57,683 nucleotides of DNA from a virus, in IMG/VR virus record IMGVR_UViG_3300044971_000875, positions 1 to 57,683 of that record; one strand, given 5' to 3'. Positions 1,152 through 29,331 of this stretch are shown piece after piece. Below the pieces are notes generated by a model. The model was given only the letters and a program-made list of their open reading frames with translations. It was not told where the DNA came from and did no database searches. Within the stretch, counting starts at the first letter, position 1; every line of letters begins with the position of its first letter. Made by a program: the position numbers and the translations under genes.

Positions 1152-1874
1152 ATGTTTAAAAAAAGTATTTTTAATAAAAAACAAAAACCAATTTTAAGAT
1201 ATGAGTCTGCCGTTCCAACTTATCCAAACTCAATAGTTCCAACAAAAAAAGTTGTACCAGATTGGTATAAAAAAATACCACAATATTATGATGATGTAAT
1301 GTTTAGTGATGATTTTAATATTAGGTCAACAGTTAAATTATGTGTACCATTTTTAGATTCATTAACTATTGGCTACGTAATGACCCTTCCTTTTGATCTA
1401 TATGTTGAAATAAGAGACGGGGTTCCATTTATTTTATGGCCAAAAGGTGCAAAAGGCACACCAAATGTCAGAAATAATGTAGCAAGTGAAAAACTTGTTC
1501 CAATTGGTCATTATCCTACAGAATTTGTTTGGCACCCAGGAGTTTCCTATGGCGTTCCAAAAGGATATAGTATTTTATTTACTCATCCACTAAATAGACA
1601 CGATCTTCCATTTACAACTTTAAGTGCAGTGCTTGATGGAGGATTGGTATTAAGCGAAGATGGAAATGTTCCATTTTACCTTAAAGAGGGATTTACAGGA
1701 CTCATTGAGCAAGGAACGCCAATAGCACAACTAATACCGTTTCGCCAAGAAGACTGGAACTCAGAAAAAACAAAAGGTCTGGTAGAAATTGGAAAGAGTC
1801 ATAGTGATTCTGCTAGTAGTGTTTTTAAAGGATGGTATAAAAAAACATTTTGGACAAAAAAACAATACGATTAA
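1152..1874 (+). CDS. Conserved phage protein, beta-rich DUF6065-like
   Basis: This 240-residue protein starts at an ATG after GGAGAAG. It contains VPDWYKKIPQYYDD, KLCVPFLDSLTIGY and a C-terminal half with HPLNRHDLPF, LSAVLDGGL, IEQGTPIAQLIPFR. This layout (a Pro-rich segment, GVV/AVLD, then I-x-x-GTP-x-AQLIP) resembles proteins seen in marine and cyanobacterial phages with no assigned role. The 261-residue protein at 17413-18198 shares the same order of motifs, and the one at 3050-3751 may do so, so this could be one of a small paralogous family in this genome. Function unknown. Confidence 0.75.
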   Translation: MFKKSIFNKKQKPILRYESAVPTYPNSIVPTKKVVPDWYKKIPQYYDDVMFSDDFNIRSTVKLCVPFLDSLTIGYVMTLPFDLYVEIRDGVPFILWPKGAKGTPNVRNNVASEKLVPIGHYPTEFVWHPGVSYGVPKGYSILFTHPLNRHDLPFTTLSAVLDGGLVLSEDGNVPFYLKEGFTGLIEQGTPIAQLIPFRQEDWNSEKTKGLVEIGKSHSDSASSVFKGWYKKTFWTKKQYD

Positions 1875-15760: not shown

Positions 15761-16177
15761 TTATTTTATTTTAATTACTTTAGGTTTTTTATCTTCAGGA
15801 ATTACACGAACAACATTAATTGTTAGCAGTCCATCTTTTAGTTCAGCACTAGATACTTCCATGTATTCACCTAAAGCAAAAGATCGTACAAACTTACGAC
15901 CAGCAATTCCTTTGTGAACAACTTCAGCATCTGTAACCTCTACAATTTCACCTTTAATTACCAAGGTTCCATTATCTACTGATACATCAATATCTTCTTT
16001 TGTAAATCCCGCAATAGCAAGAGATAGCCTATATGTATCTTCATCTAATTTAAGAAGATCGTATGGAGGATATGATTGTGAATTTACTTTATGTGCTGTA
16101 TTTAAACGGCCTAACTCTCTGTTAAAGCCAATAAAAAAAGGATCATTGAATAGATCCATTGCAAACTGTGTTACCAT
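15761..16177 (-). CDS. Small heat-shock protein, Hsp20 family
   Basis: This 138-residue protein resembles IbpA. A short N-terminal arm (FNDPFFIGFNREL) precedes an alpha-crystallin domain (YPPYDLLKLDEDTYRLSLAIAGF ... DVSVDNGTLVIKGE ... VRSFALGEYMEVSSAELKDGLLTINV) and a C-terminal I-x-I-like tail (KVIKIK). It holds unfolding proteins without using ATP. Hsp20 genes are well known in cyanophages. AGGGGAA precedes the ATG and a TGATATAAT promoter lies at 16235-16243, just downstream of the tRNA genes. Confidence 0.9.
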   Translation of the reverse strand: MVTQFAMDLFNDPFFIGFNRELGRLNTAHKVNSQSYPPYDLLKLDEDTYRLSLAIAGFTKEDIDVSVDNGTLVIKGEIVEVTDAEVVHKGIAGRKFVRSFALGEYMEVSSAELKDGLLTINVVRVIPEDKKPKVIKIK

Positions 16178-17153: not shown

Positions 17154-17375
17154 TTAGTTATTTTTTATTTTAACTACTACTTGACATGGGTCGCCTCCTG
17201 CTTCCCACTCTTCTTGTTCTTCTTCTTCCATGAAAGGATCCCCTTCATGTGTATTGCAGAAAGGCTCTGTTATCCAGCCCCTCTCAATTCCATTTTCTAG
17301 CCAAATTTCAAATTCTTTATCGTTTGAATCTAAATCTTGTATTTTTTTTAAAACTTCTTCAAAATTTTCATCCAT
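17154..17375 (-). CDS. Acidic conserved phage protein
   Basis: This 73-residue very acidic protein contains GWITEPFCNTHEGDPFMEEEEQEEWEAGGDPCQVVVKI. The 'I..PFC.THDG....EEE..EWE.GGDPC' block recurs in many actinobacteriophages without a known role; it may bind metal through its Cys, His and Asp residues. It has the best minus-strand promoter in the window, with the ATG 6 bases after the -10 box. Confidence 0.75.
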   Translation of the reverse strand: MDENFEEVLKKIQDLDSNDKEFEIWLENGIERGWITEPFCNTHEGDPFMEEEEQEEWEAGGDPCQVVVKIKNN

Positions 17376-17381
17376 ATATTA

Positions 17382-17410
17382 ATTATACCTATCTACTAAC
17401 TTAAAGTCAA
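17382..17410 (-). promoter_or_regulatory. Consensus leaderless promoter
   Basis: On the minus strand: TTGACT (17410-17405), exactly 17 bases, TATAAT (17387-17382), then 6 bases to the ATG at 17375. Confidence 0.85.
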
Positions 17411-17412
17411 AT

Positions 17413-18198
17413 CTAGTTTGTTGTTTTTTTAGGAAGTTGGTGATTAATAAATTTATTATTGTTTACGTCCATTCCACGATAATAAAGCCTATCTGGAAGA
17501 GATTTATTGTAATTTGACATCTCTCTACGCTCCGTATGTTTTTTGACTACATTTCTTTCTTCTTCTACAATATCTTTATCAAAAATATCGTATGCATTTT
17601 TTAATTCAAATGAATCACAAAAATTTCTAGGTATTGGAATTAAACCCATTAACGGAGTATTAGCAAATACACGAATAATAATATTTGGTAAATCCATTTT
17701 AAGATTCATTGTAAAAGTAAATCTTAAGTTGTCTGACTCAACGACACCCGTCATTGGGCTCATTCCAGGAATCGGATAGTTTGGTGGAGCAATAGTCATC
17801 AAGTTAATACCTGGTGGTGTTTTTAACGTTACTGGAAAATGAATCGTAAGGATGCCACTTCCAAATTCAGATTTTAAATTGACCTGGTTTTTATTTTTAT
17901 ACAAACTTGCGTCTGAATGTAAATCTATTTTAATGTCATTGGTAGAGTCTCCACCATTCCACAAAACATCAAATCCAAATGGAACACTAAAAACAAATCC
18001 TTGCATATTTCCTATTGATAATGGCAAGCAATGATAAAAGTGTGAGGAAAACCAATCTCTTTTATGATCTAGGTTTAATGGTTTTAAAAAAGAATTAAAA
18101 TCCATATCAAACTCTTCAACGCCATCATTTGGGATTAATGGAAAAATTGCTATGGTGTTATCTGGCACTACTAAATCTTTGTCTTGATTAATTATCAT
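17413..18198 (-). CDS. DUF6065-like beta-rich protein
   Basis: This 261-residue protein contains YHCLPLSIGNMQGFVFSVPFGFDVLWNGG, FGSGILTIHFPVTLKTPPGINLM, PPNYPIPGMSPMTGVVESDNLRFTFTMNLKM and IIRVFANTPLMGLIPIPRNF. This is the pattern of DUF6065-type proteins in bacteria and phages: a beta-rich fold with no assigned reaction. It shares motif order with the protein at 1152-1874 (HPxNxxDLPF, GVV/AVLD, TPxAxLIPxxR). The last 60 residues are charged and variable. It lies between the acidic protein and the HslV-like peptidase. Confidence 0.7.
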   Translation of the reverse strand: MIINQDKDLVVPDNTIAIFPLIPNDGVEEFDMDFNSFLKPLNLDHKRDWFSSHFYHCLPLSIGNMQGFVFSVPFGFDVLWNGGDSTNDIKIDLHSDASLYKNKNQVNLKSEFGSGILTIHFPVTLKTPPGINLMTIAPPNYPIPGMSPMTGVVESDNLRFTFTMNLKMDLPNIIIRVFANTPLMGLIPIPRNFCDSFELKNAYDIFDKDIVEEERNVVKKHTERREMSNYNKSLPDRLYYRGMDVNNNKFINHQLPKKTTN

Positions 18199-18207
18199 TA
18201 AGATCTC

Positions 18208-18738
18208 TTAAATACTTACTACATCAATAGGCCCCATACAGGATGGGCTAAATTTAATAGCAGAATTTACTGCACCAACCACTCTTTTACGAGGATCTTT
18301 AGATTTTTCTGTAGCATTTAAAAATCCATAGGCATACTCTGCGCCAGATCCCATTGCTAAGTAATCTAAATTGTATTTAGACAAAGACATGTCAACTGCA
18401 TTGTGCTCATATATTTGTCCCTTAACACAAATAATTAAACCAAGGTCAGCCTCTTTGCCAGTGTCAACCCACCAGTCATTGTAAAAATTTTTAAGTTGCT
18501 TAATAAATTTAGTTTGCATAAATTTGTCTATGTCTTTAATGTCTGGTATGTATGGATTAAAATTATACCTAATACGTTCACCATCTAGTGCACCAGCATA
18601 TCCTATTAAGTATGGACCAAGTTTCCAAACTTTTGGTGCTGTTAAAGAAAGAATAGTATTATCATCTGAGGCACCACGATCACCAGCCATATAAACTTTA
18701 TTTGTTTCTAGATCACGTACAACTGCAAGCACTGTCAC
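18208..18738 (-). CDS. Proteasome-beta/HslV-like Ntn-hydrolase
   Basis: This 176-residue protein begins at GTG 18738 (GAGGGGG upstream) as MTVLAVVRD. Removing Met would expose Thr2, the nucleophile of this superfamily. D20 (MAGDRGAS) and K36 (APKVWKLGPYLIGYAGALDG) match Asp17 and Lys33 of HslV and proteasome beta subunits, and LAMGSGAEYAYGF (GSG 130-132) matches the conserved Ser loop. Length equals HslV. No HslU/Mpa-type ATPase is encoded here. It probably forms a ring peptidase; targets (host proteins, virion proteins or itself with a host unfoldase) are unknown. Confidence 0.85.
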   Translation of the reverse strand: MTVLAVVRDLETNKVYMAGDRGASDDNTILSLTAPKVWKLGPYLIGYAGALDGERIRYNFNPYIPDIKDIDKFMQTKFIKQLKNFYNDWWVDTGKEADLGLIICVKGQIYEHNAVDMSLSKYNLDYLAMGSGAEYAYGFLNATEKSKDPRKRVVGAVNSAIKFSPSCMGPIDVVSI

Positions 18739-18764
18739 AACATTCCCCCTCAGAATATATTTAA

Positions 18765-18773
18765 ATTATATCA
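18765..18773 (-). promoter_or_regulatory. Extended -10 promoter for the peptidase
   Basis: TGATATAAT (18773-18765, minus strand) lies 26 bases before the GTG start of the HslV-like gene, with a ribosome site between them. No clear -35 box. Confidence 0.6.
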
Positions 18774-18799
18774 AAAAGTTGTTAATTAGTCAAATACTT

Positions 18800-19384
18800 T
18801 TATTTAACAGTTTGTCCACATGATGAACATGTTTTTGGTTTAGCAGTACCCTTTTTTGCAGGGGCTGCTGGAGTTGTTGATCCAGATGCACCGAATTTAG
18901 GTCTACCAAATCCTACTATAGATATCATAACATTTTTTGGATTTTTCTTATAAGCACGAAGTTTTTTACAAACCTCTCCACCATTACGTTGGCTACCTTT
19001 TGGATCTCCAGATGTATTACCTTCAACACACCAAACAGTTCCATCTCCATTGTCTTTAACAACAATTGCTACGTGAGAAATTCTATCAACACCATCTGAA
19101 GGGAAATCAAAGTATGCAATGTCTCCTGGTTCTGGATCTGCTACTTTTGCATCAGTCCAACTACCTGCTTTTTTAAATGCTGCTGCGCCACCTGGAGTAA
19201 ATACAGTATTTGGAATTTTTACTCCTGCTTCATTAGCACACCAATTTACGAAAGAGCCGCACCATGGCTGTAAGTCTGCTTTCATAAACTTACCATATTT
19301 GGTTTCGTTATCTTTGGGACCCTCTACGGTTCCAATTTCTGCTATAGCAACTTCAATAAGACGTTCTGCTGTACCTTGTGACAT
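18800..19384 (-). CDS. CHAP-domain endolysin
   Basis: This 194-residue lysin has a CHAP amidase/peptidase domain with WCGSFVNWCANEAG (catalytic C42), SHVAIVV (H104) and WCVEGNTS (E121/N123). It cuts peptidoglycan peptide cross-links or the amide bond. A Pro/Ala/Lys linker (TTPAAPAKKGTAKPK) leads to a CSSCGQTVK end, half of a zinc ribbon or a short binding tail, in place of a wall-binding domain. There is no signal peptide, so export needs a holin. It overlaps the two-helix gene upstream by one base. Confidence 0.9.
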   Translation of the reverse strand: MSQGTAERLIEVAIAEIGTVEGPKDNETKYGKFMKADLQPWCGSFVNWCANEAGVKIPNTVFTPGGAAAFKKAGSWTDAKVADPEPGDIAYFDFPSDGVDRISHVAIVVKDNGDGTVWCVEGNTSGDPKGSQRNGGEVCKKLRAYKKNPKNVMISIVGFGRPKFGASGSTTPAAPAKKGTAKPKTCSSCGQTVK

Positions 19385-20001: not shown

Positions 20002-20187
20002 TTATTCTTCATCATTTTTATGTCTAATTGGACTAGTTAATATCCAAAGAGCCGTAGTTGCAATGATACCGTATCCAACTACTGTTTTTGCGCTACCGTC
20101 TAAAACAACCCAGGCTATGTACATACCTAGTAGTGTCCATGCTTGATCAATTAAATCAGTAATCACATTTTTTATTATTTTTACCAT
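20002..20187 (-). CDS. Small membrane protein near lysis genes
   Basis: This 61-residue protein has two hydrophobic segments (WTLLGMYIAWVVL, TVVGYGIIATTALWILTS) and charged ends (HKNDEE). It is coupled to the large PA14 protein (7-base overlap) and lies ahead of the lipoprotein, holin-like gene and endolysin. A second holin or antiholin is possible; by sequence it is only a small membrane protein. Confidence 0.6.
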   Translation of the reverse strand: MVKIIKNVITDLIDQAWTLLGMYIAWVVLDGSAKTVVGYGIIATTALWILTSPIRHKNDEE

Positions 20188-22706
20188 TTTCCGCTCCTTC
20201 TTGATGCGCCTGAATTTGCTCCACTTGATGAACTTCCAGAAGAACCTCCTGAAGGTGCTCCACTACCTGCTGCCACCGCTGCTGCGTTAATTGCTGCACC
20301 TGTTGCTACTACTGTTGCTACAACCATATCCGTTGCTTCTTCTCTTTCTTCCTCAGTCATATCTGCACCAACACTTCCAAGTGCTGCTAGGGCTGCTCCT
20401 GGATCTGTAAAAGCGGCTGCAAGCAAAGCCCCTGGATCTGTAACTAATTCAACACTTGCAGCAACCTCTGCAGTAATGACAAGGGCATTTCCATTCTCAT
20501 CTGTGCGAAGTTCTACTGGAGTCGTTGGTGGTAGGTCTGCAAATGAAACACCAGATGCTTTTACTTCTGCTGCTGAGATTGATTCGCCAGGCTTAAGATC
20601 TTCTAGCAGTGCCTCAACAAGAACTTCTTTTTGTTCTTCAGTTAATTCTTTTCCGTCTTTTGCTTCTTCAAGTATTTCTTTTAATTCTTCTTCTTTTTCT
20701 TGTGCTTCTTCTTCTTCAGCCTTTGCTTCTTCTAATTCTTTTTCTTTTGCTTCAGCCTCTGCCTTAGCATCCTCTTCTGCTTGTCTGGCAGCCTCAGCCT
20801 CTGCTTCTTCTGCTGCTCTAGCCTCTTCTTCAGCCTGGGCTGCTGCTTCTTCTGCAGCAATTCTATCTTGTTCTGCTTGTTGTGCTTCAGCCTCTGCCTG
20901 CGCTGCAGCCTCTTCTGCTGCTACTCTATCAGCCTCTGCTTTTTCTGCTGCTGCTTGGGCTGCTTGTGCTGCTGCTTCTGCAGCAATTCTAGACTGCTCT
21001 GCTTCATACGCCTGCTGTGCTGCGACTCTTGCATTCTCTGCTGCTATTGCAGCAAGTCTTGCTTGCTCTGCTGCTTGTCTTTCTGCTTCCTCGTTGGCAA
21101 GTGTTTGACTAACTGTATTATTAGCATATGCAACTTTGTTGTTCATAATGCTTACAGCGGTTCCAACCTGAAGTATTAAAGAGTCTAGTTCATCCTGAGC
21201 ATCCTGTAAATTTTCTTCTGCCTCAATTAAATCTTCCTCTGCACTAGTCAAGTCGCCCTCAAGAATATCTAGTGCCCCTTGTGCAATGTTAAGATTATTT
21301 CTTGCAGTTGCAAGTGCTTGAAGTTGTTGTGGACTTGCATTTGTTGTACTAAATTCTGATGCAGGAATTACTTCCCATCCAGATCCTGTGTATCTTAGTA
21401 ATGACACATTGGCTCCTCCACCATTTTCGTAATACCACATTTGGAATTGCTTTGCTACTCCAGCGGTAGTCATAACATCAGCGGTAGATCCTCCACCACC
21501 CTTATCAAACCAGTCATCAATAACTAATTCATTATCAAGATAGAGGCGAACTCCATCATCTGCTGGTGCAGTTATGTACTGTGTTCCTGTTGTTTGTGGT
21601 GTCCAAATACCTTCCCACTTAACCTGGAAATCTTCTGCCACTGTTGTTGTTGAAGTAACCTGGCTCGTAGCAGACACATTGTCTACTCCATAATAATCCC
21701 AGTTGGCAGGAATATTTATTGTTGCAATAGTTTTTCCTGTTGGTGCAGTAATTGTTTCTTGATGAACATAGTTTGGGTATTCCTGACTAACATTATGCTG
21801 AATACTAAAAGTACTTGTAGTTCCGTCAGTATATGTAACTACGGCATTATGATCACCATTTTTAGCAAAAACCTGGAAACTTGCAGAGGTTGTGTTTGCT
21901 GGCATAGTTATAAGAGTATCTGCAGTTGAACCTATAAGTGTTAGAGAAGGATCTTGTCCAGGACCAGGGAATCCGATTGATCCTATATATACATTATTAT
22001 TATTTTCAGTAGAAACAGGGGTTCCATTTACTGTGATTCCAATAGATGTATTTAAACGATTACCAGCAAATGTTTCAGTTACTGTTGTTGTGGTAGTTGC
22101 ACCATTTACTGTTGGTCCTGAACTACCATACTGCTCATCAATTCCATCTGTATCTGTACCAGTATAGACAACATTTCCACCCATGGCTGGCATGTTGTTT
22201 GTTCCAGGATTATGATATATTGTTACATTTAATCCAGGAGTTGTGTTAGCCTCAACCACTGCTGTTGCTGATTCTAAAACCAATGTCTTGTCTTCTACTA
22301 CTGCTGTTTGAGACTCTACCGCTATTTCTGCAATAGCAACATTTTCTTCAGCCTCAGCAACTAAAACGGTAGCAGAATCAACCTGAGCCACAGCCACAGT
22401 AGCACTATCTACTACTGTTTGAGCCTGTAATATTGAGTCCTGTGCCTGTGTGATAGTGGCTGTAATGGTCTCTGTAGGGCTTGTAATGGCTGTTGCTTGG
22501 ATTTCTATGACTGCCGTGGCAGTTTCAGCCTGAGCAATAGCAGCAGTTGCTGACTCTATAGTTTGGGCTACCACGGTGGCAGTATCTAGTATGGGTTGGT
22601 TAGTTGTCTCTAGTTGTACAGTCTCTTCAGCATGTGCTTTTTCTGTTGGGGACAGCAAGGTCCACATAAACAATAATAATGCTATTAAACTTAACCTAAT
22701 AAACAA
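20181..22706 (-). CDS. Large secreted PA14 and coiled-coil protein
   Basis: This 841-residue protein starts at TTG 22706 (no ATG in frame before it). A signal peptide (LSLIALLLFMWTLLSPTEKAHA) is followed by an Ala/Thr/Glu-rich helical stalk, a beta domain with Thr-rich loops, and a PA14-like domain (about 380-455: FQVKWEGIWTPQTTG, DDGVRLYLDNELVIDDWF), which binds carbohydrate in other proteins. A long Ala/Glu coiled coil (about 480-700) and a Gly/Ser tail follow. It may bind a host glycan, or form part of the virion or the host surface. No membrane anchor is seen at the C-terminus. Confidence 0.7.
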   Translation of the reverse strand: MFIRLSLIALLLFMWTLLSPTEKAHAEETVQLETTNQPILDTATVVAQTIESATAAIAQAETATAVIEIQATAITSPTETITATITQAQDSILQAQTVVDSATVAVAQVDSATVLVAEAEENVAIAEIAVESQTAVVEDKTLVLESATAVVEANTTPGLNVTIYHNPGTNNMPAMGGNVVYTGTDTDGIDEQYGSSGPTVNGATTTTTVTETFAGNRLNTSIGITVNGTPVSTENNNNVYIGSIGFPGPGQDPSLTLIGSTADTLITMPANTTSASFQVFAKNGDHNAVVTYTDGTTSTFSIQHNVSQEYPNYVHQETITAPTGKTIATINIPANWDYYGVDNVSATSQVTSTTTVAEDFQVKWEGIWTPQTTGTQYITAPADDGVRLYLDNELVIDDWFDKGGGGSTADVMTTAGVAKQFQMWYYENGGGANVSLLRYTGSGWEVIPASEFSTTNASPQQLQALATARNNLNIAQGALDILEGDLTSAEEDLIEAEENLQDAQDELDSLILQVGTAVSIMNNKVAYANNTVSQTLANEEAERQAAEQARLAAIAAENARVAAQQAYEAEQSRIAAEAAAQAAQAAAEKAEADRVAAEEAAAQAEAEAQQAEQDRIAAEEAAAQAEEEARAAEEAEAEAARQAEEDAKAEAEAKEKELEEAKAEEEEAQEKEEELKEILEEAKDGKELTEEQKEVLVEALLEDLKPGESISAAEVKASGVSFADLPPTTPVELRTDENGNALVITAEVAASVELVTDPGALLAAAFTDPGAALAALGSVGADMTEEEREEATDMVVATVVATGAAINAAAVAAGSGAPSGGSSGSSSSGANSGASRRSGKW

Positions 22707-27222: not shown

Positions 27223-27867
27223 TTATTTGTCAACCTCAGTCTCATTAATTTCATAGTTAAACCTATCACTGTCTTCTAAGGTCCATTTGTCTTGATTCTC
27301 TACGTCCCACTTATAATCATTAATTATTCTATCAATAACATATTCCTTTTTTAAAGTAAAAGAAGGTTCATAAATACGAACTCTATTGTTTGGCTGTATA
27401 GCAAAGTTCCCATCGTCTCTTTGTATAACATGACCACATTTATGTTCCGCTGGATTCTCTGAGTACCCGTCATCTAAAACATTGGAGTCTGGATTGTGCC
27501 AGTCAAGTGTAAACAAATATGTCCCCTTATGCATAGTCTTTGTTCTATCAATGTAAGACATTTTAAGATTTGTTAAGTTTTCAAATTTTGTTACAGATAT
27601 ATGATGACTAAAGGCATTCCATAAAACCAAATTGTGTATGTCTTGTTCTTGTACTCCAGGTTGTGTACAGAATGCGCTGATTGGCATTCTCCACCACAAA
27701 CCACCATCTTCCATCATTATGTGGAATAAGGGACTTCTACTTTTAATACTAGCAACACCAAATATAACACATGGAAAATATTTATCATGACTATCTAATT
27801 GATTTCTTAAATAGTTTCCACGCACATAACATTCTATAGGTGGTATGTTTGCATTTAATTCTGGCAT
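27223..27867 (-). CDS. Conserved phage protein next to the halogenase
   Basis: This 214-residue protein has IPPIECYVRGNYLR, CVIFGVASIKSRSPLFHIMMEDGGLWWRMPISAFC, LVLWNAFSHHISVTKFENL and EHKCGHVIQRDDGNFAIQPNNRVRIYEPSF. This set is well known from cyanophages and other marine tailed phages as a conserved protein of unknown function. It is beta-rich with many His, Cys and Trp. It lies 3 bases after the halogenase stop, so they share a transcript. Confidence 0.75.
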   Translation of the reverse strand: MPELNANIPPIECYVRGNYLRNQLDSHDKYFPCVIFGVASIKSRSPLFHIMMEDGGLWWRMPISAFCTQPGVQEQDIHNLVLWNAFSHHISVTKFENLTNLKMSYIDRTKTMHKGTYLFTLDWHNPDSNVLDDGYSENPAEHKCGHVIQRDDGNFAIQPNNRVRIYEPSFTLKKEYVIDRIINDYKWDVENQDKWTLEDSDRFNYEINETEVDK

Positions 27868-27870
27868 TTT

Positions 27871-29331
27871 TTAACCTATCCCTCTAATAATTTTAATTAT
27901 TTCTTTATGATTTAAGTATTGTTTAGACTGATCTTGAAAAACCGCTGAATTAATCATTATTTCTGCATTATTTTTTATATTTTTTGATAAAAATTGATAC
28001 TCGTTTAAAATTGCATCATTGTCAAACAAATTAAGACCTGCCATGACAACGACAAAGTTTAATGGTAAAAACATAGCATAAGAAGAATCTTTTCTAAAAT
28101 CCTCTTTAATTGGAAGTTTTGTTTTCCATTTTTCTAAATTATATTTTAAAGATTCTGGTATGTCTATAGTTAAAATATTTTTCCAAAATTCGGTATCATT
28201 TCTTTTTGTTAAATAATGTAAAACAATAAAGTCTCTAATATTTTCTGTAATATTTTCAAATGACTCATTATATTCTTTTATAACTCTTTCGTTATAATTT
28301 TGAAGTCTATGCATTAATAAAAAACTTTGTTGAATAGTTAATCCAATTGATGTTGCCTCTAGTGGTTCAAAAAAACATCCACTTAATCCCATTGCAACAC
28401 AATTTTTCGTCCATACAGTTTCTAAAGCCCCTGGATCAAAATTAAAAGTTTTTCCAACTTCTATTTTGTAACCAAGTTCTTTTTCTACTTCTAACTTTGC
28501 TTGATCGGCATTTATAAAATTATTATCATATATGTATCCATTTCCATGTCGTCCCCAAGTTGGTATTTTAAATCTCCAACCAGAATCCATGGCTTTTGCT
28601 AATGTCCAAAAATTATAATTATCTTCGTCAACAGTTGGAAATGTAATTGCAGAGTTCAATTTTAAATATTTATTAAAAGATTTCCATTTAACATCTAATT
28701 TATTCATTAAAACTCGTTTAAATCCTGTTGCATCTATATAAAAATCACTTTTATATTTATTTTTTTCTCCCACTACATAATCAATAAATCCATTTTGATC
28801 TAATTCAACATATAAAATATTATCATCAAAAACATTGATTCCTTTTTCAATTGCTTTCTTTTTTAAAAAATCATTTAATTTAAATGTATTAAAATGATAT
28901 TGATTTGTTACTGGTGTATTATCTATGTTTATTGCTTGAGCAATAACTTTATTTTGTAAAACACTATCTGGATAAATGTATTGTAAGCCTTCAGATATTT
29001 GTTTTGCGTATACGTGTGAATATTGACCAACTATATTGCTAAATGGTGGACCAACCGTATGCATATATTTTTTATTTTTAATCCAGCCATCAAACATAAT
29101 TCCAATCTTAAATGTTGCATCACATTCTGTAATGATTTCACTACCTTTAATTCCAACAAAATCCATAAACTCTCTAAAATGTTCTGTTGATCCTTCTCCT
29201 ACACCAACAATTCCAATATTTGAAGAATATACTAAATTAACCTCTAAAGTGCTACGTTCTTTTAAAATAAGTGCAGAAATTAAGCCAGCAGTTCCCCCAC
29301 CAACAACAGTTAAACTTTTCACATGTTTCAT
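27871..29331 (-). CDS. Flavin-dependent tryptophan-halogenase-like enzyme
   Basis: This 486-residue enzyme matches PrnA-type halogenases. The FAD site is VVGGGTAGLISA (9-20); the catalytic Lys is K75 in DATFKIGIMF; GWRFKIP (251-257) is the GWxWxIP signature with Phe for the second Trp; FEPLEATSIG (about 321-330) holds the paired Glu. These enzymes add Cl or Br to tryptophan using reduced flavin. Related genes occur in cyanophages, where the substrate is unknown. Free Trp, Trp in a protein, or another aromatic ring could be used. It overlaps the RuvC-like gene by 4 bases. Confidence 0.85.
   Translation of the reverse strand: MKHVKSLTVVGGGTAGLISALILKERSTLEVNLVYSSNIGIVGVGEGSTEHFREFMDFVGIKGSEIITECDATFKIGIMFDGWIKNKKYMHTVGPPFSNIVGQYSHVYAKQISEGLQYIYPDSVLQNKVIAQAINIDNTPVTNQYHFNTFKLNDFLKKKAIEKGINVFDDNILYVELDQNGFIDYVVGEKNKYKSDFYIDATGFKRVLMNKLDVKWKSFNKYLKLNSAITFPTVDEDNYNFWTLAKAMDSGWRFKIPTWGRHGNGYIYDNNFINADQAKLEVEKELGYKIEVGKTFNFDPGALETVWTKNCVAMGLSGCFFEPLEATSIGLTIQQSFLLMHRLQNYNERVIKEYNESFENITENIRDFIVLHYLTKRNDTEFWKNILTIDIPESLKYNLEKWKTKLPIKEDFRKDSSYAMFLPLNFVVVMAGLNLFDNDAILNEYQFLSKNIKNNAEIMINSAVFQDQSKQYLNHKEIIKIIRGIG

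Follow-up and report, generated by a model that had tools for sequence, protein, structure and literature searches.

A conserved phage homologue of HslV and BPH that may act without a dedicated ATPase

The DNA analysed here, from a lake virus and amounting to an entire IMG/VR record of 57,683 bases (hereafter the window), encodes a predicted threonine peptidase of the HslV/BPH type. The peptidase gene is under strong purifying selection, and no gene for a recognizable partner ATPase was found in the record or in eight longer relatives. Characterized HslV requires the ATPase HslU, a component of the textbook enzyme that the phage peptidase appears to lack. We see about an even chance that the protein is a self-assembling threonine peptidase which, with no dedicated ATPase, clears unfolded polypeptides during infection. 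In the literature on the function of phage proteasome-like proteins, we found only one directly relevant study, a 2021 survey (Fuchs et al., PMC8665760), and came across no proteasome-superfamily protein of a phage whose function is known.

The window is probably a fragment of a phage genome, because relatives reach 110 kb. Features of the peptidase locus are collected in Table 1.

Table 1. Predicted features at the peptidase locus (coordinates in the window)
Feature	Position	Strand	Evidence
Threonine peptidase, an Ntn-hydrolase of the HslV/BPH type; 176 residues from a GTG start codon	18208..18738	-	Active-site residues T2, D20, K36, G130-S131-G132
Peptidase leader with GAGGGGG ribosome-binding stretch before the GTG start	18739..18755	-	Sequence; same stretch in relatives
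Sigma70-type promoter TTGACT-17-TATAAT, TG before the -10, upstream of the peptidase	18765..18793	-	11/12 consensus
Endolysin (CHAP-like) encoded next upstream, conserved in that place and distinct from the enzyme	18800..19384	-	phrog_21825, E=5.3e-23
Small heat-shock protein (Hsp20) from a gene conserved downstream	15761..16177	-	phrog_432, E=2.6e-37

Family membership and active site

Residues 1-176 of the protein match the phrog_1040 ‘peptidase HslV family’ profile (E=3.8e-18), and the score against the Pfam Proteasome family is slightly below threshold (19.3 bits, with a cut-off of 22.4). The profile of a set of 57 diverse relatives, whose alignment extends down to 19% identity, matches over the full length both HslV of Thermotoga maritima (1m4y; E=9.7e-14) and BPH, the betaproteobacteria proteasome homologue (E=1.8e-12), and ranks HslV and BPH above 20S beta subunits. 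Judged by these profile comparisons, homology to the HslV/BPH family is far beyond chance.

An earlier reading of the DNA from its sequence alone (hereafter the sequence-only reading) had pointed to a threonine following the initiator methionine, Asp20, Lys36 and a GSG loop, and all are present. With Met as residue 1, these residues align with T1, D17 and K33 of HslV and with its GSG loop, and the protein thus carries the N-terminal Thr/Ser nucleophile and the Asp17/Lys33 equivalents of the proteasome-like (Ntn-hydrolase) superfamily. That reading had also named loss of the threonine in relatives as an observation that would count against it. No such loss occurs: all 80 close relatives retain Thr2, and position 2 is threonine (54) or serine (3) in each of the 57 diverse members. 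Among the latter, K36 and G130 are invariant and D20 is found in 56. The position of the start is likewise common to all 80 close relatives, which use ATG or GTG followed by a threonine codon, and the GAGGGGG stretch ahead of the GTG in the window resembles a Shine-Dalgarno sequence. As a point against the explanation favoured here, six of the 80 close relatives (L008, L011, L012, L014, L019 and L072) carry Glu at the position of the catalytic Asp20 and are of uncertain activity.

Among the eight genes compared, the peptidase gene has the lowest median pairwise dN/dS (0.058); TerL gives 0.078, the endolysin 0.120 and Hsp20 0.148. Relatives are encoded by at least 234 IMG/VR stretches. This abundant group is a new lineage of an already known kind of enzyme, and its abundance, together with a constraint stronger than that on TerL or the endolysin, indicates that the gene matters to the phage.

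Predicted structure

An AlphaFold model computed from the diverse alignment has a mean pLDDT of 94.1 and a pTM of 0.90, and a model from close relatives alone (pLDDT 37) was discarded. The retained model shows the core fold of the superfamily, in which two beta sheets lie between helix pairs (residues 52-59 with 70-88, and 133-142 with 149-163). Its top matches in a Foldseek search of the PDB are BPH (TM 0.80) and HslV (TM 0.73-0.75) rather than 20S beta subunits. A structure lacking the Ntn site would have spoken against the sequence-only reading; the site is intact in the model, and the computed fold and the residues together support the proposed Ntn-hydrolase of proteasome-beta/HslV fold.

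Two further details come from comparison with HslV and BPH. When the alignment is read by eye, the basic cavity cluster of HslV (R86/R89/K90) appears to be replaced by T93/E96/A97, a loss that does not favour HslU-type regulation. The linker at residues 89-99, which corresponds to the H2-S7 pore loop, holds D92, E96, D98 and K95 and looks short in the alignment. BPH, in contrast, has an extended acidic loop at this place, and the apparent, HslV-like shortness of the phage loop would count against the BPH-like mode of action that we favour.

Relationship to known proteasome homologues

When GTDB species genomes were scanned, the close family gave no cellular relative and the broader alignment gave seven, none of them actinobacterial. 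In the tree, the nearest kin of the clade that includes the window are other metagenomic viruses (33-38% identity). The homologues from DSL-LC01 and Microbacterium phage Pumpernickel, which begin with MTTI, are separate from this clade. Together with a protein of Gordonia phage Daredevil that was seen as a structural match alone, they represent proteasome-like proteins in actinobacterial phages, and a claim that the window holds the first actinophage member was dropped in view of these three homologues. The novelty implied by the sequence-only reading was also overstated, as phage homologues constitute a curated PHROG and were described in 2021 (Fuchs et al.).

Phages of Salmonella, Vibrio and Aeromonas also carry homologues. 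Members of phrog_1040 (e.g. DAL_45 of Psychrobacter phage D'Alembert and gp067 of Salmonella phage S124) share with the window peptidase the fold, a Met-Thr start without a propeptide, the same D and K residues and a similar length. However, they are just 25-30% identical to it, and they are neighboured by genes for nucleotide metabolism or PhoH, whereas the window peptidase neighbours an endolysin. Identity to cellular enzymes is lower still, at about 16-21% for BPH (PDB 5ovt, 5ovs and 5ovu), the best structural match, and ~20% for HslV (ClpQ), which is matched by profile over its full length but for which no accompanying HslU was found here.

Two phage-borne families of proteasome homologues were described by Fuchs et al. 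2021 (PMC8665760): AAH, from alphaproteobacteria, actinobacteria and phages, and PPH, from phages and their hosts. AAH was not found in actinobacterial phages by these authors. Like the window peptidase, AAH is phage-borne, belongs to group I (the HslV/BPH side), contains both helix pairs H1-H4 and has no known AAA+ partner. Assignment of the window peptidase to AAH therefore fits in gross features, as compared by description alone. PPH is also a phage-borne group I Ntn-hydrolase with no known ATPase, but it comprises ~140 residues and lacks helix H2 (PMC8665760). The length of 176 residues and the long H2 at residues 70-88 exclude PPH as the identity of the window peptidase.

Probable host

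The virus likely infects an actinobacterium, because its TerL and DNA polymerase are 54% and 55% identical, respectively, to their counterparts in Streptomyces phages, including Yaboi of the Stanwilliamsviridae, and because WhiB is encoded by all eight of the long relatives. In the control set, WhiB was found for Corynebacterium only. The actinobacterial host assumed in the sequence-only reading thus appears probable.

Promoter and gene neighbourhood

The promoter that had been noted beside the peptidase gene is borne out by comparison: it lies between the endolysin and peptidase genes and is recognizable in 38 of 48 relatives, including two (L031 and L042) whose upstream neighbour is not the endolysin. 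The window contains two exact copies of TTGACT-17-TATAAT, compared with 0.06 expected by chance. The other copy, at 17382-17410 (-), is located upstream of a gene at 17154-17375.

Of 64 testable relatives, 60 have the endolysin as the next gene upstream, at a median distance of 68 bases from the peptidase. Hsp20 is encoded downstream of the peptidase in 52 of 58 testable relatives, and is a possible functional partner on suggestive evidence. The link is weak, because genes for thioredoxin and a nuclease are about as constant among relatives as Hsp20.

Search for a partner ATPase

As the sequence-only reading had stated, no ATPase of the relevant kind is evident: no match to the HslU/ClpX-type (AAA_2) or AAA families was found in the 57,683-base record. 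Eight longer relatives, of which three are ~110 kb and whose records are possibly incomplete, likewise gave no AAA_2 match. They gave four weak AAA matches, all below the cut-off, and the one inspected (in L157) resembles a P-loop kinase or nucleotidyltransferase. The peptidase itself turned up once per relative. The dedicated HslU ATPase that defines HslV proper was thus not found in the record or in these eight relatives. An ATPase could be encoded in an unsequenced part of the phage or supplied by the host.

Proposed function and alternative explanations

We infer the oligomeric form, activity, substrates and role of the peptidase from computational comparison, and propose the following course of events. 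During infection, the protein would be produced from its own host-type promoter, and host methionine aminopeptidase would remove Met1 to expose Thr2 as the nucleophile, there being no propeptide. The subunits would then close into a ring-shaped chamber, for which the double ring of HslV, a double hexamer, and of BPH is the likeliest arrangement. Like BPH, the chamber would act without a dedicated ATPase, no phage unfoldase having been found, and would cut polypeptides, unfolded or damaged, that reach its interior unaided. Clearing or recycling of unfolded protein would in turn aid phage growth, and the downstream phage Hsp20 may hold substrates soluble. There is precedent for such an arrangement in BPH, an HslV descendant that has no known unfoldase and binds epoxomicin (PMC5777263). 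It is this precedent, combined with the apparent loss of the HslV basic cavity cluster, that leads us to favour an ATPase-independent chamber. A more ambitious version, in which the Hsp20 holdase feeds an ATP-independent chamber to create a minimal module for quality control or host-protein recycling in widespread freshwater actinophages, is decidedly improbable.

The phage peptidase might instead take an unfoldase of the host, either a Clp ATPase or Mpa, as its partner and turn the host's regulated proteolysis against selected host or defence proteins. The dependence of characterized HslV on HslU and the failure to find a phage ATPase in the record or the eight relatives are both in keeping with this possibility, and the very strong sequence constraint would suit an interface. 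We nevertheless regard it as unlikely, given that the basic cavity cluster of HslV appears not to be retained, that homologues in phages of very different hosts argue against one fixed partner, and that no co-occurring AAA+ interactors were reported for the AAH and PPH families by Fuchs et al. (PMC8665760). A role as a virion or assembly protease that matures a structural protein, which the sequence-only reading had also entertained, is quite unlikely, because seven of eight long relatives have an S78 prohead protease of their own that scores above the cut-off. The gene does reside in a lysis or late-gene neighbourhood, adjoining the endolysin, and in distant phages (e.g. L165, L170 and L178, examined by eye) it lies between apparent terminase and portal genes. 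Elsewhere, however, it is found amid nucleotide-metabolism genes, and its place is therefore not tied to head genes.

The likely host phylum, actinobacteria, carries 20S proteasomes, and the phage protein could in principle join or poison the host particle as an alternative beta subunit, much as the capture of or competition with this system suggested by the sequence-only reading. Mixed rings of this sort would suit the two tandem paralogues observed in some distant phages. Yet both profile and fold are of the HslV/BPH type rather than the PrcB type, which leaves the suggestion without support; the nucleophile is strictly conserved, and homologues are carried by phages whose hosts (Salmonella, Vibrio and Aeromonas) are not known to have a 20S proteasome. 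We consider such joining or poisoning of the 20S proteasome extremely unlikely. A role as a specific protein-modifying enzyme, either a peptide ligase or a cleaver of a single substrate, rather than a general peptidase is very unlikely but has some basis in that the superfamily includes connectase, a ligase with the same fold (PMC8665760), and in that the phage peptidase has no known substrate. Connectase carries a two-helix insertion between S3 and S4 and lacks the first helix pair, whereas the window model has no such insertion and contains both helix pairs.

Other observations

In the distant phages L188, L204, L225, L227 and L228, a second Ntn-hydrolase gene resides directly downstream of the first. 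Three of these (L225, L227 and L228) belong to the Aeromonas 2L372 group, in which the second copy begins MTTIAYKNGVMVSDGR, unlike the first. It is conceivable that such tandem paralogues form mixed rings.

Several other genes of the window were recorded. Two genes on opposite strands, at 1152-1871 (+) and 17413-18198 (-), both match phrog_7084, which has no known function. An 841-residue protein encoded at 20181-22706 (-) begins with a signal-like segment and contains long repeats rich in Ala and Glu, and its only match is a weak one to tape-measure proteins. At 27223-29331 (-), amid DNA-replication genes, a ferredoxin-like gene (phrog_3704) adjoins a gene for a tryptophan halogenase (phrog_2928).
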